A stretch of DNA of 64,000 nt from Rivularia sp. PCC 7116 (GTDB lineage Bacteria > Cyanobacteriota > Cyanobacteriia > Cyanobacteriales > Nostocaceae). Numbering within the stretch: position 1 is the first letter of the stretch; each line of letters begins with the position of its first letter. The notes below the pieces were generated by a model. The model was not told the origin of the DNA. It ran no database searches and saw only the letters and a list, made by a program, of their open reading frames with translations. A program made the translations under genes and the position numbers. Below are positions 42,499 to 57,428 of this stretch, in pieces. The stretch covers positions 5,952,001-6,016,000 of the forward strand of contig NC_019678.1 in assembly GCF_000316665.1 (NCBI RefSeq), read 5' to 3'.

Positions 42499-42773
42499 CA
42501 GTTTCATTTGCTCGTAGAAAAGGCGATCGCACCATTTTGCAGTCACTAAGCAAAAATATTCGCCCCCGATCAAACTTATCTCTTAAGTTTTACTTTATCT
42601 TTACCCTCCATTTTTTTTTAATGACACAAAATATTAGTGCATAGAAAAAAGAATCTCAATCATTTGTAACATTAACTAATATTAAGCTCAAGAAAATTTG
42701 AACGAGAAGAAATAAAAGCGTTAGTTAAAAAGCGGGGCAGTGCATTTGAATGATATTTTAGCTAGGAAAATTG

Positions 42774-43985
42774 ATGAAAAGTAACATAATTGAGCAAGAA
42801 CAGCAGTTAACGCAAACTTTTGTTAAAGCATCTGCAAATATCTTAAAAGTCAATCAATGTCAAGAGTTGAGTAGTTATCTGTATCAAACTGCTTGCAAAG
42901 TTAGTAGTTTAGTTAATTGTTCGCAGTTAATAATTATTATTAGTCAAGAAAATACCGAACAAATTATTGCTAGCAATTTAGCTACACATAACGCTAGTAG
43001 ATATAAAAATATAATTAGTAAAACAATTAAATACGCTAGGCAGAAGCGAGAATACAAGAAAACCTTCGATAATTATATATATATACCATTAAAAACTGTA
43101 ACTGGCGAAATAGTTGGGGGAATTTGCGCTTTAGGTAAACAGCTATTATCTTATAAAAAAGAGGAAATATTAACTTTAGAAATGTTTGCAGAATTAACTG
43201 CAACAAAAATAGATAATTATCGTTTGAGTCAACAGCATCAAACAATGAATAGTATGATTCAAACTAAAATAGTTAACCATACAAAAGAATTAAATGTTAT
43301 AAAAGCCAAGTTAGATAGAAACAATCATCTTGCTAAAGTAGGCGAATTTACTGCATCAGTTATTCATGAAATTCGTAATTCATTGACAATAGTAAAAATG
43401 GGGTTAGAATATTTTAGTAAAGTAGAGAATTTACCACAAAATGCAAAAGAACGCTTGTTGTTATCAACAAGCGAACAAAAAAGATTAGAGCGTTTACTGC
43501 AAGAAATATTATTCTATTCAAAACCGAATAATTTACAATTATCCGAGCTAAATGTTAATAGCTTGATTGAAAAATCTTTAGCTATCATCGAACAAATGCC
43601 ACAAGCTAAAGGAAGAATTATAGAATTTATTCCTTTTCCACAACCTATAAATATTTTAGGAGATACAGATAAACTCAAACAGATATTCATCAATCTTCTT
43701 CGCAACGCTTGTGAAGCAGTTGGAAATGGTGAATTAATCAAATGGCGAGTTTGTTATCCCAATATGAATTACGTGCGTATTAGCATTAATAACGGTGGCA
43801 CTCCTATTTCTTCTTTTAGTTTATCAAAAATAACTCAACCTTTTTATTCAACTAAACCTGATGGAACAGGATTAGGTTTGGCAATCGTAGAAAGAATTGT
43901 TCAAGCTCATGGAGGTAAGTTATTAATTCAATCAAACTTGACAACAGGAACTACGGTATACGTTGAGCTACCAGTAGCGAGATAA
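42774..43985 (+). CDS. GAF-domain sensor histidine kinase
   Basis: 403 residues from ATG 42774, chosen over the TTG one codon earlier because AGGA lies at a better distance. The GAF-like sensor domain covers ~20-150 (VSSLVNCSQLIIIIS, YIPLKTVTGEIVGGICALGK), then a coiled coil. HisKA has His198 in 'SVIHEIRNSLTIV', and HATPase_c shows INLLRNACEAVG, 'ISINNGG', 'FYSTKPDGTGLGLAIV'. There is no transmembrane helix, so it is cytosolic. No response regulator is adjacent, but an AraC regulator starts 48 bp downstream on the same strand. Confidence 0.92.
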   Translation: MKSNIIEQEQQLTQTFVKASANILKVNQCQELSSYLYQTACKVSSLVNCSQLIIIISQENTEQIIASNLATHNASRYKNIISKTIKYARQKREYKKTFDNYIYIPLKTVTGEIVGGICALGKQLLSYKKEEILTLEMFAELTATKIDNYRLSQQHQTMNSMIQTKIVNHTKELNVIKAKLDRNNHLAKVGEFTASVIHEIRNSLTIVKMGLEYFSKVENLPQNAKERLLLSTSEQKRLERLLQEILFYSKPNNLQLSELNVNSLIEKSLAIIEQMPQAKGRIIEFIPFPQPINILGDTDKLKQIFINLLRNACEAVGNGELIKWRVCYPNMNYVRISINNGGTPISSFSLSKITQPFYSTKPDGTGLGLAIVERIVQAHGGKLLIQSNLTTGTTVYVELPVAR

Positions 43986-44033
43986 CTAGATAAAGGGTTT
44001 TTATTAAAAGTATTTATAGAAGGGGGAACATCT

Positions 44034-44570
44034 ATGAAAGATGCAACGATTACAAAAAAGCAGTTAATTCAAGAATTAGAAATTGTTCGTCAACTAGAAT
44101 CGCAAATACTCGAACAGCTTTCGGAATTAGAAACTCAAGATACCTATAGAAAACCAGATTTTTTAATAGATGAGCCTGCGGAGATAATTTACAACGTTAA
44201 ACCCCATGTCCAACATCACGAAGGTGAAAAGTTTCAATTTCCCGAACATCCCCAATTAAGAGCAATATTTGCTTTCATTGAAGTTAATTATTATCAGCCT
44301 ATTACCCTCAACGATGTAGCTAAAGCTTTTAGTTACACGCCCTCATATTTAACTAGTTTAGTACGTCGTCTAACTGGTAAAACTTTATACCAATGGATTG
44401 TTCAGCGTCGCATGTTCCAAGCTCGTTGCTTATTATTATCAACCGAATTACCTGTATGTAAAATTGCGGAAGCTGTAGGTTATCCCGACACAGGACATTT
44501 TGTGAAGCATTTTCGTCAAATCCATAAAAAGCCGCCTAAATCTTGGAAACACTTTCCCTCAGATAGCTAA
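44034..44570 (+). CDS. AraC-family transcriptional regulator
   Basis: 178 residues. An N-terminal coiled coil (~8-36, QLIQELEIVRQLESQILEQL) replaces the usual AraC sensor domain. The two HTH motifs of the AraC domain (~78-175) are clear: 'ITLNDVAKAFSYTPSYLTSLVRRLTG' and 'LPVCKIAEAVGYPDTGHFVKHFRQIHKKPPKSW'. It follows the GAF kinase by 48 bp and precedes the ABM/amidohydrolase/tyrosinase genes, which makes it a candidate regulator for that set. Coiled-coil dimerisation may be its only regulatory input. Confidence 0.92.
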   Translation: MKDATITKKQLIQELEIVRQLESQILEQLSELETQDTYRKPDFLIDEPAEIIYNVKPHVQHHEGEKFQFPEHPQLRAIFAFIEVNYYQPITLNDVAKAFSYTPSYLTSLVRRLTGKTLYQWIVQRRMFQARCLLLSTELPVCKIAEAVGYPDTGHFVKHFRQIHKKPPKSWKHFPSDS

Positions 44571-44820
44571 TTAATCAACCCGATTTCTTGCTTGCTTTTA
44601 GGGATATAAACTGGGTTTATCCAGAATTTTTTGCGAATGATGTCAGATTTCAGATTAACAAAACTTTGTAGTTTGATAGAAGTTGAAATCCATAAAATTA
44701 CCAACTAAATCTATAAAATTACCATTGCGATCGCAATTGTAGAAAAGGTAGATTAAATCATCGATTATTAACTTCTGCCTTTTTTATCGAAAAGTCCTAA
44801 AATCAATCAAATATTCGAGA

Positions 44821-45159
44821 ATGAAGCAACAAACAAATACTGTAGAAGTACCAATAGTTTTATCAGGAAGATACAAAATTAAGCCCGATAAAAGAGAGAG
44901 ATTTTTAGAGTTAGCGCACTTAGGTGTAGAATCCAGCAGAGCGGAAGTTGGAAATATTAGCTATAGTTTCTACGAAGAAGCAGGGACTCCTAATTCGTTC
45001 ATATATTTTGAAGAATGGAAAAGTAGAGAAGCTTTAGTAGAACATCTAAAACAACCCTATGTAACTCCTTTGTTAAAAGAATTTTCTCAATTAGTTGATG
45101 GTGAAGCTGATGTCAGAGTTTATGATATCCATAGCTTAACTTATGGGTTGCCAATGTAA
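44821..45159 (+). CDS. Antibiotic biosynthesis monooxygenase (ABM) domain protein
   Basis: 112 residues, a ferredoxin-like ABM fold (PF03992): 'VLSGRYKIKPDKRERFLELAHLGVESSRAEVGNISYSFYEE' with the usual PNSFIYFEEWKSREALVEHL and a final VRVYDIHSL strand. Family members are small cofactor-free quinol or polyketide monooxygenases and heme-degrading enzymes; a YgiN-like quinol monooxygenase role is plausible. It is 60 bp upstream of the amidohydrolase start and in the same direction, so the two are probably co-transcribed. Confidence 0.85.
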   Translation: MKQQTNTVEVPIVLSGRYKIKPDKRERFLELAHLGVESSRAEVGNISYSFYEEAGTPNSFIYFEEWKSREALVEHLKQPYVTPLLKEFSQLVDGEADVRVYDIHSLTYGLPM

Positions 45160-45218
45160 AGAAATATCCTTTGTCATTTATTATTTACGAAGGAACAATT
45201 ATCATCTCGGAATTAAAG

Positions 45219-47183
45219 ATGATGAATAGTAGACATTCTAGAAGAGATTTTCTTAAATTAGCTGCTGCTTCGGGAATCTCATCATATTTTTTAAGTTCTT
45301 GCCGTCAGCCTGAAAGTGCTGCTGTTGACGAGAATACGAAAGCAGATTTAATTTTAACTAACGGTAATATTGCTACCCAAGATAACCCCCGCTCCTTGGC
45401 TAAAGCTGTTGCTATAAGTAACGGACGCTTTCTTGCTGTGGGAACGGAAAAGGAAGTTATGGCATACAGGAGTGATAATACCAAAATTATTGATGCACGA
45501 GGGCGCACGGTAATTCCCGGTATAAATGATACTCATACCCATCTGATTCGCGGCGGACTTAACTATAATATGGAACTGCGGTGGGATGGTGTTCCGTCGC
45601 TGGCTGATGCATTGCGGATGTTGAAGGAACAGGCTTTGCGAACCCCCGCGCCGCAATGGGTAAGAGTGATTGGTGGGTGGTCGGAATTCCAGTTTGCAGA
45701 GCGTCGAATGCCGACTTTAGATGAGATTAATGCTGTTTCTGGCGACGTTCCGGTTTTTATTCTCAACCTGTATAACAGAGCATATTTGAACCGTGCTGCT
45801 TTACGTGCCCTTGGTTATAACAAGAACTCAAAGGCTCCAGAAGGTTCGACATTTCAACGGGATAGTAACGGTAATTTGACAGGGTTGTTAATTGCTCAAC
45901 CGAATGCTGCCATACTCTACGCTAGTATTGCCAGAGGTCCCCAACTTAGTCCCGATGACCAAGTTAATTCGACTCGTCAATATATGCGCGAGATGAATCG
46001 GTTGGGTATTACTAGCGTGATTGATGCTGGTGGCGGCGGACAAAATTATCCCGATGATTATCAAATTATTGAAAAATTGCATGAGAGTGGAGAACTGACT
46101 GTTCGCATTGCTTATAATCTATTTACTCAAAACCCCGGTAAGGAATTAGAAGATTTTCAGCGATGGACTAAAATAACTACTCCCGGAAAAGGAGATGATT
46201 TTTACCGGGTTAACGGTGCGGGAGAAATGCTCGTTTATTCGGCTGCCGACTTTGAAGATTTTACCGAACCCAGACCGAATCTTCCACAAAGTATGGAAGA
46301 GAATTTAAAAGAGGTGGTGAGTTTATTAGCTCAGAATAAATGGCCATTTCGACTTCATGCGACTTACGATGAATCTATTACTCGGTTTTTGAATGTTATC
46401 GAAACAGTAAACCAGGATATTCCACTCAAGGGAATGAATTGGATTTTAGACCATGCCGAAACTATCTCTGACAAAAATATTGAGAGAGTCAAAGCCTTGG
46501 GTGGTGGAATCGCGATTCAGCATCGTATGGCTTATCAAGGTGAATATTTTCTCAATCGTTATGGTGAAAAACTAGCTCAACGAACTCCCCCCATCAAGAA
46601 AATATTGAACATGCAAGTACCTGTAAGTGCGGGTACCGATGGTACGAGAGTTGCTAGCTACAATCCTTGGGTTGGGATTTACTGGTTAGTCAGCGGTAAA
46701 ACAGTCGGTGGTACATCTCTATATTCTGAAGCAAATCGCTTCGATAGAATGGAAGCCTTGAGAATGTATACCGCTAATTCCGGTTGGTTTACTACTCAAG
46801 AAGGAGTTAAAGGTGCAATAGTACCAGGACAATTAGCCGATTTAGTAGTGCTTTCAGAAGATTATTTTTCCATTCCAGAAGATAGTATTAAACGCTTAGA
46901 ATCGGTTTTAACAATAGTCGGTGGTAAACCCGTCTATGCGAAAGCAGAATTCAAAGATTTGAATCCACCACCGTTACCAGTTAGTCCTAACTGGTCTCCA
47001 GTTATTCATTATGGAGGATATAAGAATAGTAAACCCATGTCTACAGTCTCGCATATGCCCGCCCATATAGGCTGTTGCTCTCCGTTGCAAAGTGGAAGCG
47101 CGAATAGTTCACCTGTATCTCTGAATAATGTTGGTAGTCTTTCCAACTTGTGGGGAAATATAGGTTGTGCTTGTTTTGTTTAG
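45219..47183 (+). CDS. Tat-exported lipoprotein amidohydrolase (YtcJ-like) with Cys-containing C-terminal tail
   Basis: 654 residues from ATG 45219; a TTG at 45171 would spoil the signal sequence. The start carries a perfect twin-arginine motif (SRRDFLK) and a lipobox (FLSSCRQ), so a folded protein is exported and lipid-anchored. The amidohydrolase_3 domain has the metal-binding NDTHTH, 'FRLHATYDE', LDHAETIS and SAGTDGTR motifs. The tail after ~residue 600 is odd: 'HIGCCSP', a Ser/Asn/Gly-rich stretch and the final 'GNIGCACFV', four Cys in the last ~40 residues. This tail is not part of the catalytic fold. The next gene encodes an NHLP-like peptide. Substrate unknown; YtcJ relatives hydrolyse N-substituted amides. 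Confidence 0.88.
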   Translation: MMNSRHSRRDFLKLAAASGISSYFLSSCRQPESAAVDENTKADLILTNGNIATQDNPRSLAKAVAISNGRFLAVGTEKEVMAYRSDNTKIIDARGRTVIPGINDTHTHLIRGGLNYNMELRWDGVPSLADALRMLKEQALRTPAPQWVRVIGGWSEFQFAERRMPTLDEINAVSGDVPVFILNLYNRAYLNRAALRALGYNKNSKAPEGSTFQRDSNGNLTGLLIAQPNAAILYASIARGPQLSPDDQVNSTRQYMREMNRLGITSVIDAGGGGQNYPDDYQIIEKLHESGELTVRIAYNLFTQNPGKELEDFQRWTKITTPGKGDDFYRVNGAGEMLVYSAADFEDFTEPRPNLPQSMEENLKEVVSLLAQNKWPFRLHATYDESITRFLNVIETVNQDIPLKGMNWILDHAETISDKNIERVKALGGGIAIQHRMAYQGEYFLNRYGEKLAQRTPPIKKILNMQVPVSAGTDGTRVASYNPWVGIYWLVSGKTVGGTSLYSEANRFDRMEALRMYTANSGWFTTQEGVKGAIVPGQLADLVVLSEDYFSIPEDSIKRLESVLTIVGGKPVYAKAEFKDLNPPPLPVSPNWSPVIHYGGYKNSKPMSTVSHMPAHIGCCSPLQSGSANSSPVSLNNVGSLSNLWGNIGCACFV

Positions 47184-47242
47184 ATTGGCTTTTGTGTCAG
47201 ATTTCTTAATCGCTTAGTTTTAGAGAATCTTAATTTTAGAGA

Positions 47243-47449
47243 ATGATATTAAATAACAAAAATCGCAGAAAATTTGAAGAATTATTAATTACTAAGGCTT
47301 TTCAAAATACTTCTTTCAAAAGAGAATTGATTGAAAACCCGAAAATGGCTATTGCTCAAAATTTTGGCGTTCAACTACCAGTAGACATAGAAATTAGAGT
47401 TTTGCAAGAAGACAAGAAAGTACTCTATGTTGTGTTGCCATATGTATAA
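47243..47449 (+). CDS. NHLP-type leader-like peptide (nitrile-hydratase-leader family) without core
   Basis: 68 residues: FEELLITKAFQNTSFKREL, ENPKMAIAQNFGVQLP, IEIRVLQEDKKVLYVVLPYV. This is the nitrile hydratase alpha-subunit-like leader fold used by NHLP RiPP precursors. In typical precursors a core peptide rich in Cys, Ser or Gly follows the leader; here the protein ends at the last strand, so there is no core. It may act in trans as a leader or scaffold, or be a small NHase-like domain of other use. The stop is 9 bases from the next start. Confidence 0.75.
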   Translation: MILNNKNRRKFEELLITKAFQNTSFKRELIENPKMAIAQNFGVQLPVDIEIRVLQEDKKVLYVVLPYV

Positions 47450-47457
47450 TTACAAGA

Positions 47458-48522
47458 GTGAAGACAACGATTTTAATGTATGACTATTTGGTTGACTATT
47501 TAAATGCTATTACACCTTACCTTTCTGCCGAACTAGTTAGTTTAAACACCATTGCTAGAATTAAAAAAATTTCTAAAACTTTAAAGCCAACATGGGGAGC
47601 TTTTTTAGAATGTCCTTTGAGTGAAGATAATAGTACAGTTCATTTTTCTATTCATGCATTAGACAATGCCATTAAATTACCGTCAAAAATGCGCTCCGAA
47701 TGTATATGGCAGCGCATTCAGCAGCTATGTATGGATTGTAATTGTTCTCAGTCGCGTTTAAGCCAGGAAATTAGCAGCATTTTTTTAGATTTTGAATTGA
47801 GTCAAAAAAATGCGGAAATTCCTATTCCTTCAATTTTTTTTAATTTGAAAGAAGGAGATTTGCAGTGTTTAAATGGAGATATTAAAACCTTTTGTACTTG
47901 GTTGATTAAAAAAGTTGTAGAACCGTTGAATAATCGTACTATTTCTGCTTATCTGCAACGAAATTTAGAATTATCTTTAACCGCATTACCTGCCGGAGCG
48001 CAAATCCTGGAGTTAGGAATAATGCAGCCTTCTCCACTAGATTCTATCCAATTAAGTATTAGCAGTATGTCTCCTTTAGCGATTTCCGAATATTTAACTC
48101 GGATTGGCTGGAGGGGTTCAATTGTCGAAATTGAAAAATTAGCTTTGTTTCTCAATGAAATTGTAGATACGATTGTTTTAAAAATAGAACTAGGAATTAC
48201 AGTTGCACCTCAAGTCAGCTTACAGTGTTTTATATATCAAAATTTATATAAAGATGGTTATTGGCAACCTTTATTCGATTTTCTCATTGAAAATAAATTA
48301 TGTACTCCAAAAAAGTATGCAGCACTTTTAAACTGGACGGGATTATCTTACGAAAAATATTCTCCCATACCTTGGCCTACTAATTTAAAAATGATTTCTG
48401 ATTTTTTAGGAAATAGGGCATCAAGTATTTTAGTTAGGGAAGTAAGTCATATAGAAATAACCTATACAGAAAAGAAATTAGATGCAAAAGCTCATTTATG
48501 GTTTAGTCCAGATTGGGATTAA
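47458..48522 (+). CDS. Unrecognised 354-aa protein paired with the NHLP-like peptide
   Basis: I do not recognise the family. It starts at GTG 47458, only 9 bases after the NHLP-like gene, so the two are translationally linked. It is soluble with mixed alpha/beta character and no signal peptide or membrane helix. Notable parts: six Cys in the first 150 residues including QLCMDCNCSQS, a GDIKTFCTWLIKKVVEPL helix, a 'LPAGAQILELGIMQPSPLDSIQL' region and the closing 'HLWFSPDWD'. The tight pairing with an NHLP-like peptide suggests it binds or processes that peptide, but no catalytic motif is visible. Confidence 0.7.
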   Translation: MKTTILMYDYLVDYLNAITPYLSAELVSLNTIARIKKISKTLKPTWGAFLECPLSEDNSTVHFSIHALDNAIKLPSKMRSECIWQRIQQLCMDCNCSQSRLSQEISSIFLDFELSQKNAEIPIPSIFFNLKEGDLQCLNGDIKTFCTWLIKKVVEPLNNRTISAYLQRNLELSLTALPAGAQILELGIMQPSPLDSIQLSISSMSPLAISEYLTRIGWRGSIVEIEKLALFLNEIVDTIVLKIELGITVAPQVSLQCFIYQNLYKDGYWQPLFDFLIENKLCTPKKYAALLNWTGLSYEKYSPIPWPTNLKMISDFLGNRASSILVREVSHIEITYTEKKLDAKAHLWFSPDWD

Positions 48523-48700
48523 GAATGGGTAATGGTGAATAGGTAATAGGTAATGGGGAATAGACAAATTTAAATCGCGATCGCGAGTTTTGTTTAATAT
48601 ATTTTAAGTGATAATTACCAACTACCAACTACCAATTACCAATTACCCATTCCCCATTCCCCATTCCCTTCAATATATAAAATTAACCCCACTCAGTACC

Positions 48701-50077
48701 GTGCAAAATCTAAAAAAAATCAAAAAATTATCGCTTTTAGCCTTTGTCCTTATACTTGCAATTACAGCTACAGTAGTTGTGTTCAGTTCGCAATGGAGCA
48801 ATTCCTCTAATAATACTAAGACTGTATCGCAACCCGGAAGCATTCAGGATGCTGGTCCTTATGAAATGACCCCTATGCCAAAGGCTTCTCTTCCTGCTCC
48901 AGTCTATCCCCAGGCAAAATCAGATGCGAAGCTTCCAGTACGTAAGAGTATTGTGGACTTAACATCTCAGGAGAAAGCTGCATTTGTCAACGCTCTAAAA
49001 AAAGTTAAAAATACCATTCCCGAAGGTAGTAAACTCAGTGTTTTTGACAAACTAGTTCTACAACACGTTATGGTTGCTGGATTCGAGAAACCTTTTAAAT
49101 CTTCAGGGCCAGCGGCAGGTTACAATCCCGCTCATCCCGGTCATCCTGCATTTTTACCTTGGCATCGGCAGCTACTTGATGACCTTGAAAATGCTTTGCA
49201 GAAAATAGATCCCAGCGTTACTATTCCGTACTGGGATTGGACAGACCCCAAAGCCTTAGATGCCATGCTTAGTAATGATTTTATGGGGGGAAATGGTGAA
49301 GGGGTTACAGTGGATATTCCGGGAGTAGGTACTTTTAAAGGAGGACCTGTTAAATCCGGGCCATTTGCTGACGATTGGACGGTGAATGAAGATATCCACA
49401 TAGAGCCGATTAATTTTACATCATTAGGGTCAAAAATTATCCGATTTCTAAGAATCCCTCCCTTTAACGAATATCCCATGCCCAAAGAAGTCATCGACCG
49501 CATGATGAATCTCGATGACTACGAAATTTTCTCTTTGGTGTTAGAAGGAGGTGGTACTGGATTAGATAAGAACAGCAAAATAATTGAAGATTGGGCAGTT
49601 CATGTAGTTTCTCATGCAATGATTGGAGGAGTGGTTTTGAAAGATTACAATAAAACAGCCCTTCCCACTAACCAAGCTCGGAACCTAGGAACAATGATGA
49701 GTATCCTTAGTTCTCCCTATGACCCGACATTTTGGTTAACTCATTCCAACGTAGACCGTTTATGGGCAGAATGGCAAGACAATGGACATACAGGTGAAAA
49801 ATTCTATCCTAAAAACAGGATGGATTATGGCTATAACATTAAAGACCCAATTTGGCCTTGGGATGGCGGTAAATCCACACCGGGAAATCTCAACGATACG
49901 GATTTAGTCGCGATGCTGCCTAAAACTAATAGAATTATTACCGCCGCAGACCTGCTTGATTTTCGTAAGTTAGGTTATACCTATGATACGACTCGTCTTC
50001 GTAGCGAGAAAGCAATGCTCAAGCCAAAAACTAAATCTAATCATTCCATTCTTCACTGGTTGAGGAAGCAAGCCTAA
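48701..50077 (+). CDS. Membrane-anchored tyrosinase (type 3 copper oxidase)
   Basis: 458 residues from GTG 48701. An upstream GTG at 48608 would add 31 residues translated from CCAATTACC short repeats, which I reject. Residues ~8-28 form a signal anchor (LSLLAFVLILAITATVVV). The copper A region has 'LQHVMVAGF' and 'PAFLPWHRQLLDDLE'; copper B has 'DWAVHVVSHAMIGG' (HVVSH) and 'DPTFWLTHSNVDRLWAEWQ'. IPYWDW is the typical connecting block. It should oxidise phenols or catechols outside the cytoplasm. It follows the NHLP-like and 354-aa genes and precedes the NTF2-like gene, all on the same strand. Confidence 0.92.
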   Translation: MQNLKKIKKLSLLAFVLILAITATVVVFSSQWSNSSNNTKTVSQPGSIQDAGPYEMTPMPKASLPAPVYPQAKSDAKLPVRKSIVDLTSQEKAAFVNALKKVKNTIPEGSKLSVFDKLVLQHVMVAGFEKPFKSSGPAAGYNPAHPGHPAFLPWHRQLLDDLENALQKIDPSVTIPYWDWTDPKALDAMLSNDFMGGNGEGVTVDIPGVGTFKGGPVKSGPFADDWTVNEDIHIEPINFTSLGSKIIRFLRIPPFNEYPMPKEVIDRMMNLDDYEIFSLVLEGGGTGLDKNSKIIEDWAVHVVSHAMIGGVVLKDYNKTALPTNQARNLGTMMSILSSPYDPTFWLTHSNVDRLWAEWQDNGHTGEKFYPKNRMDYGYNIKDPIWPWDGGKSTPGNLNDTDLVAMLPKTNRIITAADLLDFRKLGYTYDTTRLRSEKAMLKPKTKSNHSILHWLRKQA

Positions 50078-50110
50078 TAGGCGTAATCTTCATTTCACAA
50101 ATACGCTTAA

Positions 50111-50172
50111 AACCTCACCCCCTTCCCCTCTCCTTGTCAAGGAGAGGGGTGTTCGTAGGACGGGGTGAGGTT
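50111..50172. repeat. Dispersed hairpin AACCTCACCCC..GGGGTGAGGTT, copy 2
   Basis: Nested inverted repeat: outer AACCTCACCCC / CGGGGTGAGGTT and inner CCCCTCTCCTTG-TCAAGGAGAGGGG. It is the largest of four related copies (21829, 51384, 58262). It lies after the tyrosinase stop and probably separates that gene from the next; the rest of the 50078-50425 gap is AT-rich without a gene. Confidence 0.75.
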
Positions 50173-50425
50173 CATCTGTATTCAATTGAAGTGAAAACCG
50201 CTATATTTCCATCATCAACTCAAAAATATCGCAACAATTTTCCACCATATCTATATTTTTTCCATTGATACAAATCTGATATCGGGTTTAAAATCAAGAA
50301 AATTGAAAACTTGAAAACCACAAAACTATAGTTTTCTGTTAGCAATATTAGAACTTTTCGTCAACATAAATATAGTCATTTTGACTATTTGTATAGCTCC
50401 ATGAATATACAGGAGGTTATTTACC

Positions 50426-50995
50426 ATGCCCAAAAGAATTAACTATTATAAAGAATTAGCCGCTGACTATTCCAGACCTGGATTAATTTCTGAAGATTTA
50501 AAGAAAAAACTAATCCAGCAAGGTGAAGAAATAACTACAAAAAAAGAAAAGACATTACCAGAGATTAATTCATCATATACGCTTCAACAAATAGAACAAG
50601 AAAATAAAGAATGGTGGCCTACTCATTGCGAAGCGTTGAGGCAGGGAAGAGGGGATATTTTAACCGATGAATATCGCGATGATTTGGTTTATTTCTGTCA
50701 AGATGGCCCTTATCAAGGATTAGAACAGCAAAAAGATAGAGAACAGCATTGGTGGGCTTTAATTGCACAGCCAGGAGTCACAATGGTATGGCCAATTGTG
50801 ATGTTTTTCGGCGAACATACCTTCTTTGAATGGAAGTGTATAGATGATGAAACCAACGAAACAATAGCAAAAGGAAATGTAACTTGGGTTCGTCGCGGAC
50901 ACAGAGGAGGCTGTTATTTGAAGACAGAACAGTTGACATTCTACCGTGATGTTTTTGCACCCAATGAACTATTGAAATTAATCAAAACTGCTTAG
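50426..50995 (+). CDS. NTF2/SnoaL-like protein, first gene of the icfG-type cluster
   Basis: 189 residues. A helical N-terminus (~1-55) is followed by an NTF2-like domain ('EALRQGRGDILTDEYRDDLVYFCQDGPYQG', then VTMVWPIVMFFGEHTFFEW and 'WVRRGHRGGCYLKTEQLTFYRDVFAP'). Family members bind small ligands or catalyse simple reactions; none can be named here. A strong ribosome binding site AGGAGG (50411-50416) stands 9 bases before the ATG. From memory it occupies the place of slr1852 at the head of the Synechocystis cluster. Confidence 0.75.
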   Translation: MPKRINYYKELAADYSRPGLISEDLKKKLIQQGEEITTKKEKTLPEINSSYTLQQIEQENKEWWPTHCEALRQGRGDILTDEYRDDLVYFCQDGPYQGLEQQKDREQHWWALIAQPGVTMVWPIVMFFGEHTFFEWKCIDDETNETIAKGNVTWVRRGHRGGCYLKTEQLTFYRDVFAPNELLKLIKTA

Positions 50996-51022
50996 TTATT
51001 CTAGGAACAATTTATAGGAACA

Positions 51023-51379
51023 ATGGAAACAAAGAATTACAAAAATGCCGTTTTAGATGATAAAGAATTACAAGCGGGATTGAGCGGTATTAATCCAAAA
51101 TTTGGTGACTTTTGTACCCGTGTTGCCGGAGAAGCTTGGGGTTTACCTTTAATAGACCAAAAAACTAAGGCTTTAATTACTATAGCCGTCGATGTTGTTA
51201 ACCAAGACCAAACAGGAGCAGGTAATCCCTTTGGTGCCCATGTAAATATGGCAATGCAGCAGGGAGCTACCCGTGAAGAAATAGAGGAATTACTGTTATT
51301 TATGTGCGTTTATGCCGGTTTTAACAAAGCAGCCGGTTGTTTCGGAATGTTGAATGAAATTCTCGATCCCGCCCAATAA
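51023..51379 (+). CDS. Carboxymuconolactone decarboxylase-family protein
   Basis: 118 residues. The core is 'DQKTKALITIAVDVVNQDQ', then NPFGAHVNMAMQQGATREEIEELLLFMCVYAGF, the AhpD/CMD fold (PF02627). The AhpD CxxC pair is not visible, so a classical peroxidase role is unlikely; a gamma-CMD-like decarboxylase or other enolate chemistry is possible. It begins 27 bases after the NTF2-like gene and is almost certainly in the same operon. Synechocystis slr1853 is its likely counterpart. Confidence 0.9.
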   Translation: METKNYKNAVLDDKELQAGLSGINPKFGDFCTRVAGEAWGLPLIDQKTKALITIAVDVVNQDQTGAGNPFGAHVNMAMQQGATREEIEELLLFMCVYAGFNKAAGCFGMLNEILDPAQ

Positions 51380-51383
51380 TATT

Positions 51384-51423
51384 ACCCCTCTCCGATGTTT
51401 TGGAGAGGGGCAGGGGTGAGGTT
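51384..51423. repeat. Dispersed hairpin ACCCCTCTCC..GGAGAGGGG, copy 3
   Basis: Inverted repeat ACCCCTCTCC / GGAGAGGGG-CAGGGGTGAGGTT immediately after the decarboxylase stop. Same family as 21829, 50111 and 58262. It may form an attenuator within the cluster. Confidence 0.7.
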
Positions 51424-51510
51424 TTTCCTTAACAAGCAAAGGTGTAAGATTAATCCCCCTTAACAAGGAAAAGAAAAGTTTTAAGATTAACTATCAACAA
51501 GGAAATAAAC

Positions 51511-52125
51511 ATGGCTACAAATAAAGGAAAAATTGGCGTTTTAATTGAAGAACATTTCGACGAAACCGAATATATTCGCTTCAATCAATTCTTTCCCGAG
51601 AATGGATATGAAGTAGACTATATGTCTCATCTTTGGAATCAAGAAAGTCTTAAGTTTAATGGAAATGACCATCAAGCAGAAGCTACAGTCAGCGTAGAAG
51701 TTAATGATGTTAATTTAGCGGATTATAAAGGTATCATTTTAATTGGTGGTTATGCAATGGATAGATTGCGTTACGAACCATCAGTAAAAGCAGGACAACC
51801 CAATCAAGCACCAGCGGTAAACTTTTTACGTAAAGCTGTCAAAGCAATGGATGCTGGCAATTTAAAAATTGGTACTATTTGTCATAGTATGTGGCTATTT
51901 TGTGCTGACAAAGAACTGCTCAAAGGTCGTAAAGTTACCTGCGCTCACAACATTCTTTGTGATGTTGAAAATGCTGGAGGAACCATTGTTTATGAAGGTG
52001 AAGAAACCGCAGCAACTCATATTGATGGTAACTTAATTTCTGGTAGACATCCCGGTGTTGTCGAAGAATTTATGCAATTGTTTTTGCAGGAATTAGACAA
52101 GAAACAAAAAGTCGCTGTTGGGTAA
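51511..52125 (+). CDS. DJ-1/PfpI family protein
   Basis: 204 residues. 'GKIGVLIEEHFDETEYIRFNQFFPENGYEV' is the first strand-loop of the DJ-1/PfpI fold; the nucleophile elbow is GTICHSMWLFC (Cys-His), and 'GRKVTCAHNILCDVENAGG' and 'NLISGRHPGVVEEFM' are further family blocks. Members include glyoxalase-III-like and chaperone-like proteins and some proteases, so the activity is not fixed. In the Synechocystis icfG cluster the equivalent place is held by slr1854. Confidence 0.9.
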   Translation: MATNKGKIGVLIEEHFDETEYIRFNQFFPENGYEVDYMSHLWNQESLKFNGNDHQAEATVSVEVNDVNLADYKGIILIGGYAMDRLRYEPSVKAGQPNQAPAVNFLRKAVKAMDAGNLKIGTICHSMWLFCADKELLKGRKVTCAHNILCDVENAGGTIVYEGEETAATHIDGNLISGRHPGVVEEFMQLFLQELDKKQKVAVG

Positions 52126-52263
52126 TAGAAAATTGGGCATGGGGCATAGGGCATGGGGCATTGGGAATAATTAGAAGTCAGATTTGTTTGAAGGTTAAAT
52201 TCAATTTATACCTTTAACCTTTAACCTTTGACCTTTTTCAGTAGTTATAAACTAATAATTAAT

Positions 52264-54090
52264 ATGGGTACTACCTTAGATTTTACATTTTCCGATTTAA
52301 TTGCTGGATATGTAACTTATTTTGATGAAAAAAACGATAGTTTTGGTTTAAAAACATCGGATGGTAGAGAGTTTGATTGCAATCTCAGTCCGATGAGTTA
52401 TGCTAAATTGCTGCAAAATTTGGATGAAGGCTATCCAGATGCTACTGGTTCGATGCGAGCCATGTTATCGGAAGAAAATCGCTATTTGTTCGCTTATGGA
52501 GTCTTTTATCCCGATAAGTCTTCTTTTGATGCCAAATCTTTAGTCTTTGTTGGTCGTAAGTCGAATAATTACGCTTTTGAAAAACAAAATTGGTGGGTGG
52601 ATCAAGCTCGCTCTCTAGCTAGTTTTTATTTAAAGGCTCAGTTTGGTGATGAAGAAATTGATTACCGCAATTATCGTACCTCAGTAAGTTTATCGGGGGC
52701 AAAATCAACTGTTAATTTTCGTCAAGAAACCGATACTATCTCCCGTTTGGTATATGGTTTTGCGACTTCCTATATGCTTACCGGGGAAGAAAGGTTTCTC
52801 GAAGCTGCTGAAAAAGGAACCGAATATCTCCGCGAACATATGCGGTTTCTAGATTTAGACGAAGGCATAGTTTATTGGTATCACGGAATTGATGTAGAGG
52901 GAGAACGAGAGCATAAAATCTTTGCTTCCGAATTTGGTGATGATTATGATGCTATTCCTGCTTACGAACAAATTTATGCTTTAGCCGGTCAGATTCAAAC
53001 CTATCGAGTAACCGGGGACCCCCGAATTATCAAGGATGCCGAACTTACCATCAAATTGTTTAACGATTTCTTCCTTGATAAAGGGGAACATGGTGGTTAT
53101 TTCTCTCATATAGATCCAGTAACTCTCGATCCTTTAAGCGATTCATTGGGAAGGAATAAGGGTACTAAGAATTGGAACTCTGTCGGCGACCATGCTCCAG
53201 CTTATTTAATTAATCTATGGTTAGCGACTGGGAAACAGGAATATGCCGATATGTTGGAGGATACCTTCGACACCATCGTCAACCATTTTCCCGATTATGA
53301 AAATAGTCCTTTTGTGCAGGAACGCTTTTTTACAGATTGGTCTCACGATACCACCTGGGGATGGCAGCAAAATCGCGCTGTAGTCGGGCATAACCTGAAA
53401 ATAGCCTGGAATTTGATGCGGATGTCTTCGCTGAAGTCAAAGGAAGAATACGTCGATTTAGCAACAAAAATTGGCGAAATCATGCCTAGGTTTGGCAGCG
53501 ATTTACAGCGAGGTGGTTGGTATGACGTTATGGAACGTGTTTTAGATGAAGATGAAAGCGTTTATCGATTTGTATGGCACGATCGCAAAGCTTGGTGGCA
53601 GCAGGAACAATGTATTCTGGCATATTTGATATTAAACGGTGTTCTTGGCAAAGATGACTATCAGCGTTTAGCCAGGGAAGCAGCATCTTTTTATAATGCT
53701 TGGTTCTTAGATACTGAAGATGGCGGTGTTTATTATAATGTTCTTGCTAATGGTATTCCCTTCCTTGCTAGTGGGAATGAGCGTGGTAAAGGAAGTCATG
53801 CCATGAGTGGTTATCATTCCATTGAATTGTGTTACTTAGCAGCGGTTTATACCAATTTATTAATAACCAAACAGCCGATGGATTTCTACTTTAAACCGAT
53901 GCCGTCAGGATTTCCCGATAATATCATGCGCGTTGCTCCTGACATATTGCCACCCGGTAGTATCAAAATTGATACTGTAGAAATAGATGGAAATAGCTAC
54001 AGTAATTTTGATGCAGAAAAGCTAACTGTAACATTACCTAAAACAACTAAAAGAGTAAAAGTTAGAGTCCGAATTGTGCCTACTTCATAA
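52264..54090 (+). CDS. AGE-family (N-acylglucosamine 2-epimerase-like) protein
   Basis: 608 residues from ATG 52264; a TTG at 52228 is a poor alternative. The first ~110 residues form a small beta-rich domain (DLIAGYVTYFDEKNDSFGL) not found in ordinary epimerases. The remainder is an (alpha/alpha)6 barrel typical of AGE/renin-binding proteins: 'ISRLVYGFATSYMLTG', 'YDAIPAYEQIYALAG', 'HDTTWGWQQNRAVVGHNLKIAWNLMR', and 'ERGKGSHAMSGYHSIELCYLAAVY' containing His residues in the expected places. It may isomerise or epimerise a sugar for glycogen or carbohydrate metabolism. Synechocystis slr1855 is the likely counterpart. Confidence 0.85.
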   Translation: MGTTLDFTFSDLIAGYVTYFDEKNDSFGLKTSDGREFDCNLSPMSYAKLLQNLDEGYPDATGSMRAMLSEENRYLFAYGVFYPDKSSFDAKSLVFVGRKSNNYAFEKQNWWVDQARSLASFYLKAQFGDEEIDYRNYRTSVSLSGAKSTVNFRQETDTISRLVYGFATSYMLTGEERFLEAAEKGTEYLREHMRFLDLDEGIVYWYHGIDVEGEREHKIFASEFGDDYDAIPAYEQIYALAGQIQTYRVTGDPRIIKDAELTIKLFNDFFLDKGEHGGYFSHIDPVTLDPLSDSLGRNKGTKNWNSVGDHAPAYLINLWLATGKQEYADMLEDTFDTIVNHFPDYENSPFVQERFFTDWSHDTTWGWQQNRAVVGHNLKIAWNLMRMSSLKSKEEYVDLATKIGEIMPRFGSDLQRGGWYDVMERVLDEDESVYRFVWHDRKAWWQQEQCILAYLILNGVLGKDDYQRLAREAASFYNAWFLDTEDGGVYYNVLANGIPFLASGNERGKGSHAMSGYHSIELCYLAAVYTNLLITKQPMDFYFKPMPSGFPDNIMRVAPDILPPGSIKIDTVEIDGNSYSNFDAEKLTVTLPKTTKRVKVRVRIVPTS

Positions 54091-54182
54091 GAATCTACTC
54101 CTTAAAAATAGGTATCCTTCTGCTTTCTAAATTCATAGTTTACTTTAATTAACATCTTGTCTTGCATCATTTCATCTCTTCT

Positions 54183-54227
54183 GGAGGCAGAGCCTCTAAT
54201 ACCTATTTCCCAGGTTGAACCTGGGAA
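54183..54227. repeat. Double-hairpin dispersed repeat (GAGGCAGAGCCTC type), copy 2
   Basis: GAGGCAGAGCCTC palindrome followed by TTCCCAGGTT (54207-54216) / AACCTGGGAA (54218-54227), a perfect 10-bp inverted repeat. Related to 13649-13716. Located between the AGE and peroxiredoxin genes. Confidence 0.7.
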
Positions 54228-54328
54228 CCAGAACAAATCCCTCCTCTAAATCTCTTTTCTCTGCGCTCTCGATTCTGCGGTTTTTATCTCTCGGAACTTT
54301 ATTAATAACAGAAAAATTAAAAATTACC

Positions 54329-54892
54329 ATGACTAACAAACTTATGCCGGGAGAAAAAGTTCCCGAATTAAAAGTAAACATCTTAAATGGGGAAGATTGG
54401 AAACTTTCTGAAGATGCTTTTACAAATATGAAGTTGATAGTATTTTATCGTGGCTTACATTGCCCGCTATGTAAAGCTTATGTCGGTGAATTAGATAAAA
54501 AAATTAACGAATTTGCTCAACTAGATATAGATATTGTTGCAATTAGTGGTGACAGCGAAGAAAAAGCCAAACTGACAAAAGCGAAATGGAATTTACAGGA
54601 AATTAAAATCGGTTACAACCACTCAGTCGAGTCTATGGCTAAATGGGGATTATATATATCTGAAGGAGCTTTTCCCAGCGAACCAAGTTTATTTAACGAA
54701 CCCGGTATCTTCTTAATTAAATCTGACAAAACTTTATTCTTCGCTGGAGTTAACAACGCCCCTTTTGCTCGCCCTCCTTTAGATGATTTAATCTCGGGAA
54801 TCAAATACATTACTACTAATGATTATCCCGTTAGGGGAACAGTAGAAATGTCAAAATATAATATGGTTGAAGAATTAATAACTAATACTTAA
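54329..54892 (+). CDS. Peroxiredoxin-like (AhpC/TSA) protein
   Basis: 187 residues from ATG 54329; an upstream ATG at 54215 would add 38 residues of repeat translation and is rejected. Thioredoxin fold: 'MPGEKVPELKVNILNG', the reactive-Cys loop 'VFYRGLHCPLCKAYVGEL' (CPLC), 'DIDIVAISGDSEEKA' and 'EPSLFNEPGIFLIKSDKTLFFAGVNNAPFARPPLDD'. It is of the PRX-like2/AhpC-TSA type, a thiol peroxidase or oxidoreductase. It stops 6 bases before the STAS gene, so both are in one operon. I do not recall this gene in the Synechocystis icfG cluster. Confidence 0.88.
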   Translation: MTNKLMPGEKVPELKVNILNGEDWKLSEDAFTNMKLIVFYRGLHCPLCKAYVGELDKKINEFAQLDIDIVAISGDSEEKAKLTKAKWNLQEIKIGYNHSVESMAKWGLYISEGAFPSEPSLFNEPGIFLIKSDKTLFFAGVNNAPFARPPLDDLISGIKYITTNDYPVRGTVEMSKYNMVEELITNT

Positions 54893-54898
54893 AGGCAA

Positions 54899-55240
54899 AT
54901 GACTATCAATACGAAAACGGTTGCAGGTGTAAATATTATAGAAATAGCAGACAATAACGTAGATTCTAGAACTGTACCCGATATTCAACAGGAAATATTT
55001 CCACTAATTGAATCTAGCAATCAACTAATAATTGATTTATCACAAGTTTCTTATATGTCTAGCGCTGGTTTGCGTATGCTGCTATCTTCCTATCGAAAAG
55101 TAACCGCTAAAGATGGAAAAATAGTTGTAGTAGGTCTTTCCGAACAAATTAAAGATACCATGTCTATAACCGGATTTCTTGATTTTTTTGAATGTTCCGA
55201 AAATGCCACAACCGGTTTAGCTTTGTTTCTAGAAAATTAA
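54899..55240 (+). CDS. STAS-domain anti-sigma factor antagonist 1
   Basis: 113 residues, RsbV/SpoIIAA fold: 'NVIDSRTVPDIQQEI'-type start, 'LIIDLSQVSYMSSAGLRMLLSSYRK' with the phosphorylatable Ser just before AGL, and 'LSEQIKDTMSITGFLDFFE'. In partner switching the unphosphorylated form binds the RsbW-like kinase and frees its target; the PP2C phosphatase reactivates it. The neighbours provide both enzymes. Equivalent in position to Slr1856, a known phosphoprotein of the icfG cluster. Confidence 0.93.
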   Translation: MTINTKTVAGVNIIEIADNNVDSRTVPDIQQEIFPLIESSNQLIIDLSQVSYMSSAGLRMLLSSYRKVTAKDGKIVVVGLSEQIKDTMSITGFLDFFECSENATTGLALFLEN

Positions 55241-55316
55241 TTTTGAGTTAAGAATTAGGAATAATAAATACAATAATTACAGTTCACTAATAACTGTTCA
55301 CTGATAACTATTCCCT

Positions 55317-57428
55317 ATGTTTATAGAAAGAATTGATATTCATCCTACTCATACTAAAGATAAATTTAAATTACGTTGCGGAAAACCGTTTCCCTTTGGT
55401 GCTACCTTAATATCGGGAGGTGTTAATTTTTCAATATTTTCTCGTCATGCTACTTCTTGTACGTTAGTATTATTTGATAAACATGCTTCCGAACCAATGG
55501 CAGAAATTCCTTTCCCAAAAGAATTTCGTATTGGTAATGTTTATTGTATGGTTGTATTCGATTTAGACTATGAAAATATTGAATATGGCTACCGCATGGA
55601 TGGACCGAATAATTTTAGTGAAGGTCATTGGTTTGATAGTAGTAAAATACTTTTAGACCCCTATGCAAAAATTATCGGTGGGCGCGATGTTTGGGGCGTA
55701 CAACCTAACTGGGATGATATATATCAACACCGAGCTAAAATCGCCTTTGAAGATTTTGATTGGCAAGACGATTGTCTTTTAGAAATCCCTTCTGAAGAAC
55801 TAATTATCTACGAAATGCACGTTCGTAGTTTTACAAAACATCCTTCCTCTAATGTTAAACATCCCGGAACCTTTGCAGGAATCCGCGAAAAAATTCCTTA
55901 TTTAAAAGAATTAGGAATTAATGCTGTAGAATTAATGCCAATTTTCGAGTTTGATGAGTTTGAAAATTCCCGTCAAAGTCCGCAAACTGGAGAAACATTA
56001 TTAAATTATTGGGGTTACAGTACTTTAGGCTTTTTTGCTCCCAAAGCAGGTTATGCTGCTACGGGTAAGTTAGGGATGCAAGCCGACGAATTAAAAGCTT
56101 TAATTAAAGCATTGCATCAAAACGGTATCGAAGTCATTTTAGATGTCGTTTTCAACCATACCGCCGAAGGAAACGAACAAGGGCATTATATTTCCTTCCG
56201 AGGAATTGATAATCAGACCTATTATATGCTTACGCCGGAGGGTTATTATTACAACTTTAGTGGCTGCGGAAATACACTTAACTGTAATAATCCCATCGTT
56301 CGCGGTATGGTTTTAGATTGCTTGCGTTATTGGGTAAGCGAATATCATATAGATGGTTTTCGATTTGACTTAGCTTCTATATTAGGAAGAGACCCTTGGG
56401 GGGCACCTTTATCCAATCCACCTTTATTAGAAACTTTAGCTTTCGACCCAGTTTTAGCTAAATGTAAACTGATTGCTGAAGCTTGGGATGCCGGTGGACT
56501 TTATCAAGTTGGTTCATTTCCCGATTATGGACGCTGGGCTGAATGGAATGGAAAATATCGCGATCGCATCCGTAAATTTATTAAGGGTGATGCCAATGTT
56601 CAAGATATGGCATTGAGATTGCAGGGTTCCCCAGACCTTTATGCACATACTTGTCGGACTCCCTCGGCATCAATTAATTTTATTACCGCTCACGATGGTT
56701 TTACTTTAGCCGATTTGGTTGCTTACAATGACAAGCATAATGAAGCTAATGGCGAAAATAATAATGATGGGGAGAACAGTAATAACAGTTGGAATTGTGG
56801 AATCGAAGGATGGACTGAAAATCAATCGGTAAATAGTTTACGACAGCGACAAATACGAAATGCACTGGCGATTTTAATGATGAGCCAGGGTGTACCCATG
56901 TTATTAATGGGTGATGAAATTGGACGTTCTAAACAAGGTAATAATAATACTTATTGTCACGATAACGAACTTAATTGGCTCGATTGGACGCTGTTGTCAA
57001 AAAATTCAGATTTATTCAAATTTGTTAAAAACTGTATTGCTTTTCGTAAAGCCCATCCGATTTTAAGACAGAAAAATTTCTTAGATCGAGATAGTAATAA
57101 TGGTTATCCAGATATAACCTGGCACGGTATTCGAGCTTGGAATCCAGATTTTAGCGATTCTAGTCGGACAACTGCATTTATGCTACGCGGTAGAAAAGCC
57201 AATCAACATCAAAAAGATGATTATATTTATGTAGCAATGAACATGCATTGGGAAACTCATGGCTTTGAAATTCCCAAGTTAAATACTTCCATTAAATGGC
57301 ATATCTTTGTAAATACAGGAGTTACTTCCCCCGAAGATAGTTGGGAACCCGGGTGCGAACCTTTATTAGACAATCAGCAAGAAATTTTAGTCGGTTCTCG
57401 TTCGGTAATTATTCTAGTTGGAAGATAA
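55317..57428 (+). CDS. glgX: Glycogen debranching enzyme (isoamylase type, GH13)
   Basis: 703 residues, full length. N-terminal CBM48-like domain (~15-150: 'GVNFSIFSRHATSCTLVLFD', YGYRMDGP, LLDPYAK). Catalytic GH13 barrel: 'VVFNHTAEG', nucleophile Asp in 'DGFRFDLASIL', acid/base Glu in 'IAEAWDAGG', and Asp in 'FITAHDGFTLADLV'. The C-terminal beta domain closes at ~690. It hydrolyses alpha-1,6 branch points of glycogen. It lies between the two STAS genes, as in Synechocystis (slr1857), linking glycogen use to the partner switch. Confidence 0.96.
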   Translation: MFIERIDIHPTHTKDKFKLRCGKPFPFGATLISGGVNFSIFSRHATSCTLVLFDKHASEPMAEIPFPKEFRIGNVYCMVVFDLDYENIEYGYRMDGPNNFSEGHWFDSSKILLDPYAKIIGGRDVWGVQPNWDDIYQHRAKIAFEDFDWQDDCLLEIPSEELIIYEMHVRSFTKHPSSNVKHPGTFAGIREKIPYLKELGINAVELMPIFEFDEFENSRQSPQTGETLLNYWGYSTLGFFAPKAGYAATGKLGMQADELKALIKALHQNGIEVILDVVFNHTAEGNEQGHYISFRGIDNQTYYMLTPEGYYYNFSGCGNTLNCNNPIVRGMVLDCLRYWVSEYHIDGFRFDLASILGRDPWGAPLSNPPLLETLAFDPVLAKCKLIAEAWDAGGLYQVGSFPDYGRWAEWNGKYRDRIRKFIKGDANVQDMALRLQGSPDLYAHTCRTPSASINFITAHDGFTLADLVAYNDKHNEANGENNNDGENSNNSWNCGIEGWTENQSVNSLRQRQIRNALAILMMSQGVPMLLMGDEIGRSKQGNNNTYCHDNELNWLDWTLLSKNSDLFKFVKNCIAFRKAHPILRQKNFLDRDSNNGYPDITWHGIRAWNPDFSDSSRTTAFMLRGRKANQHQKDDYIYVAMNMHWETHGFEIPKLNTSIKWHIFVNTGVTSPEDSWEPGCEPLLDNQQEILVGSRSVIILVGR

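Follow-up and report, generated by a model that had tools for sequence, protein, structure and literature searches.

MppC is a leader-dependent alpha-beta-beta-alpha (ABBA) prenyltransferase, which adds a geranyl group to Trp82 of a cored precursor and depends on the complete leader; a leader given in trans gave no activity (PMC12715784). Here, we describe a gene pair in a stretch of 64,000 nucleotides (referred to as the window; contig NC_019678.1, positions 5,952,001 to 6,016,000) of the 8.73 Mb genome of Rivularia sp. PCC 7116, in which a predicted relative of this enzyme lies next to a leader of the NHLP family. The pair locates in the window as follows.

47243..47449, + strand: leader-only NHLP protein, 68 amino acids (TIGR03793, 63.9 bits against a cut-off of 50.9)
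47458..48522, + strand: predicted ABBA-fold prenyltransferase homologue, 354 amino acids (AlphaFold and Foldseek, residue table, tree)

The 354-residue protein resembles MppC in its modelled ABBA fold, in its place beside a leader, in a Phe at the position of MppC Phe340, and in its 27% identity to a probable MppC orthologue at locus L032. On the other hand, a core and a disordered leader tail are both missing from the window pair, and 8/10 residues that are invariant in the family are changed. NctPC is a prenyltransferase fused to a terpene cyclase, which reportedly uses a C20 donor on Trp (PMC13290415, in excerpt). Its likeness belongs to other open reading frames (ORFs) of the family, those of 707–745 residues at L125 (9174-11387), L138, L140 and L141, of which the one scanned, L125, has a squalene-cyclase-like C-terminal half; the window protein carries no cyclase.

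The founding description of NHLP precursors, in its excerpt, gives them a Gly-Gly site and a hypervariable core (PMC2887384). The window peptide passes the TIGR03793 cut-off over the leader nucleus but lacks both. In the crocagin system, CgnB and CgnE represent an enzyme fold turned into a binder of peptides of the RiPP class (ribosomally synthesized and post-translationally modified peptides), and CgnE has lost metal-site residues (PMC10070186, in excerpt). In contrast to the window protein, they have an aminopeptidase-like fold and belong to a functioning pathway in which a core is present. The cyanobactin enzymes LynF, TruF and PatF share the fold class, with PagF (6pgn, 5tu6) and PirF (6pgm) among the Foldseek matches, but the three sequences compared show no detectable similarity to the window protein. 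Among titles and abstract openings of the open-licence literature, we found no coreless NHLP paired with an eroded prenyltransferase.

We propose that a RiPP leader and its enzyme have been reused together, with the leader-barrel complex serving as a module that is non-catalytic or no longer transfers prenyl groups and is tied to an AraC-type regulator. We give this reading about an even chance. It draws on the family and modelled fold of the protein, the missing core, the loss of invariant residues, purifying selection and the linkage to the regulator. RiPP leaders and enzymes are mostly regarded as makers of peptide products. If the reading is true, the pair would be a natural case of a RiPP system whose recognition part has outlived its chemistry. 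Such pairs are also a warning to genome-mining pipelines, which should not tally them with ordinary biosynthetic clusters.

The leader stops before a core

The 68-residue peptide ends with ...YVVLPYV, two residues past the conserved VLP. It is the sole TIGR03793 match in the genome at E ≤ 0.01, and the alignment, spanning positions 2–60 of 77, covers the leader nucleus. The Gly-Gly site and the hypervariable core are absent. Besides these, the eight NHLPs of the clade to which the pair belongs lack the L(x)4L motif and the disordered tail that carries it; the role of this motif is described for MppC (PMC12715784). After VLP, 2–12 residues follow in all eight clade peptides, versus at least 29 in other NHLPs with a detectable motif. 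A cored precursor, as used by the MppC-type family, is therefore not what this gene encodes: the NHLP stops early, and only 8 bases separate its stop from the start of the 354-residue protein. This protein may have another substrate, encoded elsewhere.

Coreless peptides of this kind occur at eight loci, namely the window, four relatives of the same genus, and genomes G229, G614 and G742. Each lies directly 5′ of its own 354-residue homologue, from a 16-base overlap up to 137 bases apart. A reading made from the letters of the window before our searches (the sequence-only reading) had already treated the two genes as partners, and their adjacency at 8/8 loci of the clade confirms a true pair. 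The same check of co-occurrence failed for the tyrosinase gene further downstream, which is not linked to the pair outside the Rivularia/Calothrix group (0/2 testable loci). The searched genomes are species samples, and the absence of the pair from other genomes is judged within these samples.

A predicted ABBA fold in the MppC-type family

The 354-residue protein, earlier labelled "unrecognised", has no Pfam or NCBIfam match up to E 1; its identity can now be stated as a predicted ABBA-fold prenyltransferase homologue. An AlphaFold model from a 19-row alignment (model 1) has a mean predicted local distance difference test score (pLDDT) of 86.4 and a predicted template modelling score (pTM) of 0.88. 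The model from the eight clade rows only (model 2) reaches 81.1 and 0.83, and two of the five models produced from these rows were poor (mean pLDDT of 57.3 and 51.8); the two input alignments have two rows in common. At E ≤ 0.001, Foldseek matched PDB chains that are prenyltransferases in 33/33 cases for model 1 and 34/34 for model 2. The matched entries, which we take to be ABBA-type enzymes from their fold label, include IptA, AtaPT, NphB (1zb6), AmbP1, PagF and CymD for model 1, with a best E of 2.3e-6. Template modelling (TM) scores of the matches are ~0.35–0.55 and root-mean-square deviations ~7–10 Å. Helix pairs alternate with strand pairs in the predicted secondary structure, as would fit the alpha-beta-beta-alpha repeats that close the ten-strand barrel of the ABBA fold.

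From the models and the homology search, we conclude that the protein is an ABBA-fold homologue in a cyanobacterial RiPP prenyltransferase family of the MppC type. The weakest listed match of the family has E 3.5e-12, and the sequences join in a tree of 74 rows. A fold and a family are thus assigned to a protein without any Pfam or NCBIfam match. A PDB profile search gave one chance match only (E 1.3). The cyanobactin prenyltransferases (TIGR04445) were considered as its family and rejected, with no NCBIfam match up to E 1 and hhalign probabilities of 0.1 and 0.3% in a comparison with three cyanobactin enzyme sequences only; these were taken from beside precursors, for which TIGR04446 is the model.

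Homologues were found in 15/386 genomes sampled across the phylum and in 39/217 within the taxonomic family of the window's species, whose own genome has three copies. The named relatives found are Rivularia sp. MS3 (89% identity over the 354-residue protein), Calothrix parasitica NIES-267 (85%) and an uncultured Calothrix (85%). Flanks were taken for all matches of the phylum and family searches and for 20 stretches of a further search. The loci L038-L040 are apparently the same contigs as L071-L073 and were counted once. The tree holds 74 of 76 family ORFs, with a 49-residue fragment (L183) and a 2022-residue ORF (L127) dropped.

The link of this family to RiPPs, suspected in the sequence-only reading from the leader next door, is borne out across its members. 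An NHLP or Nif11-like leader was found no more than 10 kb from 66/75 family ORFs and no more than 5 kb from 60. Six of the 66 owe their place to weak opposite-strand Nif11-like matches in the lasso-type branch (L031, L034, L036, L137, L193 and L194), and leaving them out gives 60/75. The figure of 66 is also somewhat circular because the leader profiles were built from leaders beside the family.

The homologue at L032 lies ~395 bases from an 84-residue Nif11 peptide, which ends with GG-ACWRWSG after a 77-residue leader. MppE of Moorena producens has the same ACWRWSG core and a 77-residue leader (PMC11791876, in excerpt). Because of this match in core and leader length, the L032 protein is probably MppC or its orthologue. 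It has Phe at 340 as published for MppC, but Leu instead of Trp at 336, which leaves its identity with MppC unproven. Three other Moorena genomes gave no match to the family.

Loss of invariant residues in one clade

Ten charged or Tyr positions are invariant in the family (51, 62, 111, 113, 192, 198, 256, 333, 344 and 346), unchanged in 66/66 tree rows outside the clade of the pair. In the window protein, 8/10 are replaced (D62H, E111D, D113E, R192S, R198Q, E256Q, K333E and Y346H). The five genus members have 8 changes each, G614 has 5, G742 has 3 and G229 has 2, and R192 is gone in 8/8 clade rows. The eight partners of coreless leaders form one clade with support 100/100, spread over three families. 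As a control, 20 other clades of 4–12 rows show 0 changes at such positions, these clades being nested and hence not independent.

Substitution rates, per site and unit length, point in the same direction. At 14 conserved charged or polar sites, the rate is 0.45 in the clade versus 0.028 outside; as these sites were picked for conservation outside the clade, the ratio is biased, and the 20-clade control is fairer. At 19 other conserved positions, it is 0.20 versus 0.074, and over all 341 sites the rates are about equal (0.57 versus 0.63). Several of the ten positions alternate within predicted strands, which would fit a lumen-facing set. The lost residues are putative diphosphate binders, judging from chemistry and the ABBA fold and not from a superposition of coordinates. 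A metal site in the barrel was also considered for the window's group (His62, Asp111, Glu333 and His346) and rejected, being not common to the other three lineages.

The position aligned with MppC Phe340 is Phe316 in the window protein and Phe in 8/8 clade rows, and the leader contact of the barrel is probably kept in the clade. In four comparisons of the window with relatives, the ratio of nonsynonymous to synonymous substitution rates (dN/dS) of the 354-residue gene is 0.14–0.17, which indicates purifying selection; for comparison, the tyrosinase has 0.07–0.15 and the ABM-domain protein 0.10–0.18. The NHLP gene has 0.26–0.41, likewise in four comparisons.

These values bear on the idea that the pair is a decaying RiPP remnant, in which loss of the core came first and the enzyme now drifts. 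The same sites are replaced differently in different lineages, positions 109, 113, 198 and 256 vary within the genus, and the NHLP ratio of up to 0.41 also agrees with decay. However, the 354-residue gene holds to 0.14–0.17 in all four comparisons, its overall rate is not raised, and the frames are open at 8/8 loci, with the L072 copy starting a few codons further in, behind an in-frame stop. Meanwhile, the gene pair and its regulator are spread over three families. We regard decay as very unlikely.

A possible leader-barrel module tied to a regulator

An AraC-type gene lies within ~3 kb of the pair at 8/8 loci, on the opposite strand (divergent) in L178. Compared with the regulators found next to the pair in three distant lineages, the AraC protein of the window is 70–75% identical in its DNA-binding part, and the G614 protein includes a receiver domain. 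By blastp, a kinase-like gene is found near the pair at 6/8 loci (the window, L071, L072, L073, L021 and L180), while the remaining two, L074 and L178, have short sequence. The kinase-like protein of L021 has HATPase_c and HisKA domains.

Reuse as a leader-barrel module would have run as follows. A deep clade has kept the modelled fold and the Phe at the leader-contacting position and lost most of the invariant charged and Tyr residues, and its NHLP is reduced to the structured nucleus of the leader. By analogy with leaders that bind RiPP enzymes, this nucleus would bind the barrel protein. The complex itself may then be the working product, binding a ligand or a partner without prenyl transfer, and it would work with the adjacent AraC-type regulator in a regulatory role. 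More tentatively, and here we are rather doubtful, leader and enzyme could have been exapted together, with the leader as a permanent subunit and the complex sensing an isoprenoid, an aromatic compound or a metal and feeding an AraC-type two-component regulator.

The sequence-only reading had placed the genes in a peptide- or phenol-modifying export pathway. The peptide lacks a core and a Gly-Gly site, the enzyme homologue lacks most of its invariant charged residues, and the neighbouring genes are inconstant, which together argue against that pathway.

Several observations weigh against reuse as a non-catalytic module. Glu51 and Lys344 are kept in 8/8 clade rows, the barrel remains, and L021, a member of the clade, retains 8/10 residues; some activity may hence be left. 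Both losses, of the core and of the residues, map to a single clade, so that on the tree they are one event, not a repeated coincidence. Phe316 is not specific to the clade, with Phe in 25 of the other rows and Leu in 27. A 78-residue NHLP without Gly-Gly or core at L060 (1474-1710) has no family member within ~1.5 kb, and the AraC-type gene occurs in G630, G666 and G612 with no such pair beside it. Moreover, 14 further new homologue matches lie outside the residue and leader counts. Finally, VLP is followed by Tyr, His or Cys in 8/8 clade peptides, and this residue may be a modification site.

This last point leads to the explanation that the pair is still enzyme and substrate: a reshaped barrel, possibly using another donor, would modify the single Tyr, His or Cys after VLP, and the core would amount to only a few residues. 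These residues follow VLP in none of the other NHLPs with a detectable motif, Glu51 and Lys344 are kept, and leaders ending ...YFY, ...NYY, ...EVY or ...KW adjoin some ordinary members of the family. However, codons for His and Cys are one transition from Tyr, so the set may be mutational. R192 is lost in 8/8 rows, and the window's group lacks R198, K333 and Y346 as well, with the charge reversed at position 333, which is unexpected if these residues bind diphosphate. No protease or exporter was recognized nearby in the ORF list by eye. A continuing enzyme-substrate pair thus seems unlikely to us.

Neighbouring genes at the locus

The other genes around the pair are listed below.

42771..43985, + strand: sensor histidine kinase-like protein, 404 amino acids, assigned by eye, 5′ of the AraC gene
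44034..44570, + strand: AraC-type regulator, 178 amino acids (HTH_18, 1e-18)
44821..45159, + strand: ABM-domain protein, 112 amino acids (PF03992, 1.4e-14), local companion within the Rivularia/Calothrix group
45222..47183, + strand: amidohydrolase, twin-arginine translocation (Tat)/lipoprotein-like (PF07969, Amidohydro_3, 6.2e-123), not a constant member
48701..50077, + strand: tyrosinase, membrane-anchored (PF00264, 1.6e-32 over residues 145-391), Rivularia/Calothrix companion

The five genes from the ABM-domain protein to the tyrosinase, all on the + strand, lie where they had first been read, and Pfam or NCBIfam matches agree with the families then named (ABM, amidohydrolase, NHLP and tyrosinase). 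The PF00264 match covers the common central domain of tyrosinases, which are type 3 copper oxidases. The tyrosinase start is probably GTG 48701 in place of 48608, because the closest relative, L071, starts there and the extra stretch looks repeat-like by eye. The TAT_signal match of the amidohydrolase is weak (16.5 bits against a cut-off of 22.7). Scanning 43900-51600 gave 7 terminator-like sites against 6.3 expected and 22 promoter-like sites against 23.5; with both counts at chance level, the scan neither splits nor joins the five genes as a unit.

Across loci, the ABM gene lies beside the pair in 5/5 Rivularia/Calothrix loci. The tyrosinase is present in 4/4 of them with enough flank and in 0/2 testable loci outside, and an intact amidohydrolase was seen in 2/8 loci, with a 141-residue remnant in one. 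A GH100 neutral/alkaline invertase lies 3′ of the 354-residue gene in four relatives (L071:8061-9446, L072, L073 and L074) and is missing from the window; it was assigned by Pfam on the L071 copy and by similar starts on the others. Eight genus genomes are listed, of which five have both pair genes and three have neither.

A five-gene unit for peptide or phenol export was accordingly rejected: no intact amidohydrolase was seen in 6/8 loci (one of them, L178, on a short contig), and the tyrosinase was seen in one genus-level group only. The division of work between two compartments, which the sequence-only reading had drawn from the extracytoplasmic amidohydrolase and tyrosinase, finds no support, because it rests on these genes, which are not constant members. 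No leader-cleaving ABC transporter was recognized by eye in the window's ORF list. We regard the tyrosinase, ABM protein, amidohydrolase and downstream genes as local neighbours, not steps of one peptide pathway.

These neighbours could instead point to a small-molecule pathway, near to what the sequence-only reading had in mind, in which the barrel has the NHLP attached as its activator and works on a phenol or quinol also oxidized by the ABM protein and the tyrosinase. The ABM gene upstream (5/5) and the tyrosinase (4/4 testable) in the genus loci fit this idea, as do small-molecule ABBA enzymes such as NphB (1zb6) among the Foldseek matches. The pair in L021 is surrounded by a thiamine diphosphate (ThDP) enzyme and ThiJ/PfpI, [2Fe-2S] and SnoaL-like proteins, and ThiJ/PfpI and SnoaL-like proteins also occur in L180. 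However, L021 and L180 have no ABM or tyrosinase gene beside the pair, the residues of putative diphosphate-binding type are lost, and MppC is inactive with its leader in trans (PMC12715784). We hold such a pathway distinctly unlikely.

A conserved order is found for 50426-57428 and for L230, L231 and L232: AraC-type gene, Hyp189, glyoxalase-like/CMD, DJ-1, AGE-epimerase-like, STAS and GlgX. L230, L231 and L232 come from distant cyanobacteria, which carry the Hyp189-GlgX set without the leader pair. Hyp189 has no Pfam or NCBIfam match, and the Hyp189-DJ-1-AGE-STAS-GlgX set is perhaps stress-linked. In G630, G666 and G612, the AraC-type gene adjoins this set with no pair there, so the block of ABM, (amidohydrolase), NHLP, 354-residue protein, (GH100) and tyrosinase appears to have been inserted in the window's genus, with the AraC gene on one side and an older cluster on the other. 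At 47060-47180, the amidohydrolase has an unusual tail beyond its domain, Ser/Asn-rich with paired Cys (...HIGCCSPLQSGSANSSPV...GCACFV).

RiPP contexts of other family members

Elsewhere in the family, the neighbourhood of L023 includes a radical SAM/SPASM protein and an NHLM-type HlyD protein. Weak radical SAM matches occur at L022 and L024, and a 2-oxoglutarate (2OG)-Fe(II) oxygenase at L033. By eye, LanM-like proteins, ABC transporters and lasso-type genes lie near other members.

Two further family copies in the window's genome, L033 and L036, have all ten residues intact. The L033 copy lies near Nif11 peptides and the 2OG-Fe(II) oxygenase, and the L036 copy lies in a lasso-type cluster (by eye) with P450-like and methyltransferase-like genes. 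Two other members, L026:9011-10780 and L027:9057-10766, have a fused C-terminal 2OG-Fe(II) oxygenase domain (PF13640, best 1e-18) and adjoin Nif11 peptide arrays ending in Lys-Trp.

At L181, L184, L185, L186 and L187, Nif11-like peptides without Gly-Gly lie beside ordinary family members. Their ends, several of them aromatic, read ...YFY, ...VVW, ...AAYF, ...VNYY and ...QEVY. Judging from these ends, the peptides are possibly prenylated at the C-terminus of very short cores.

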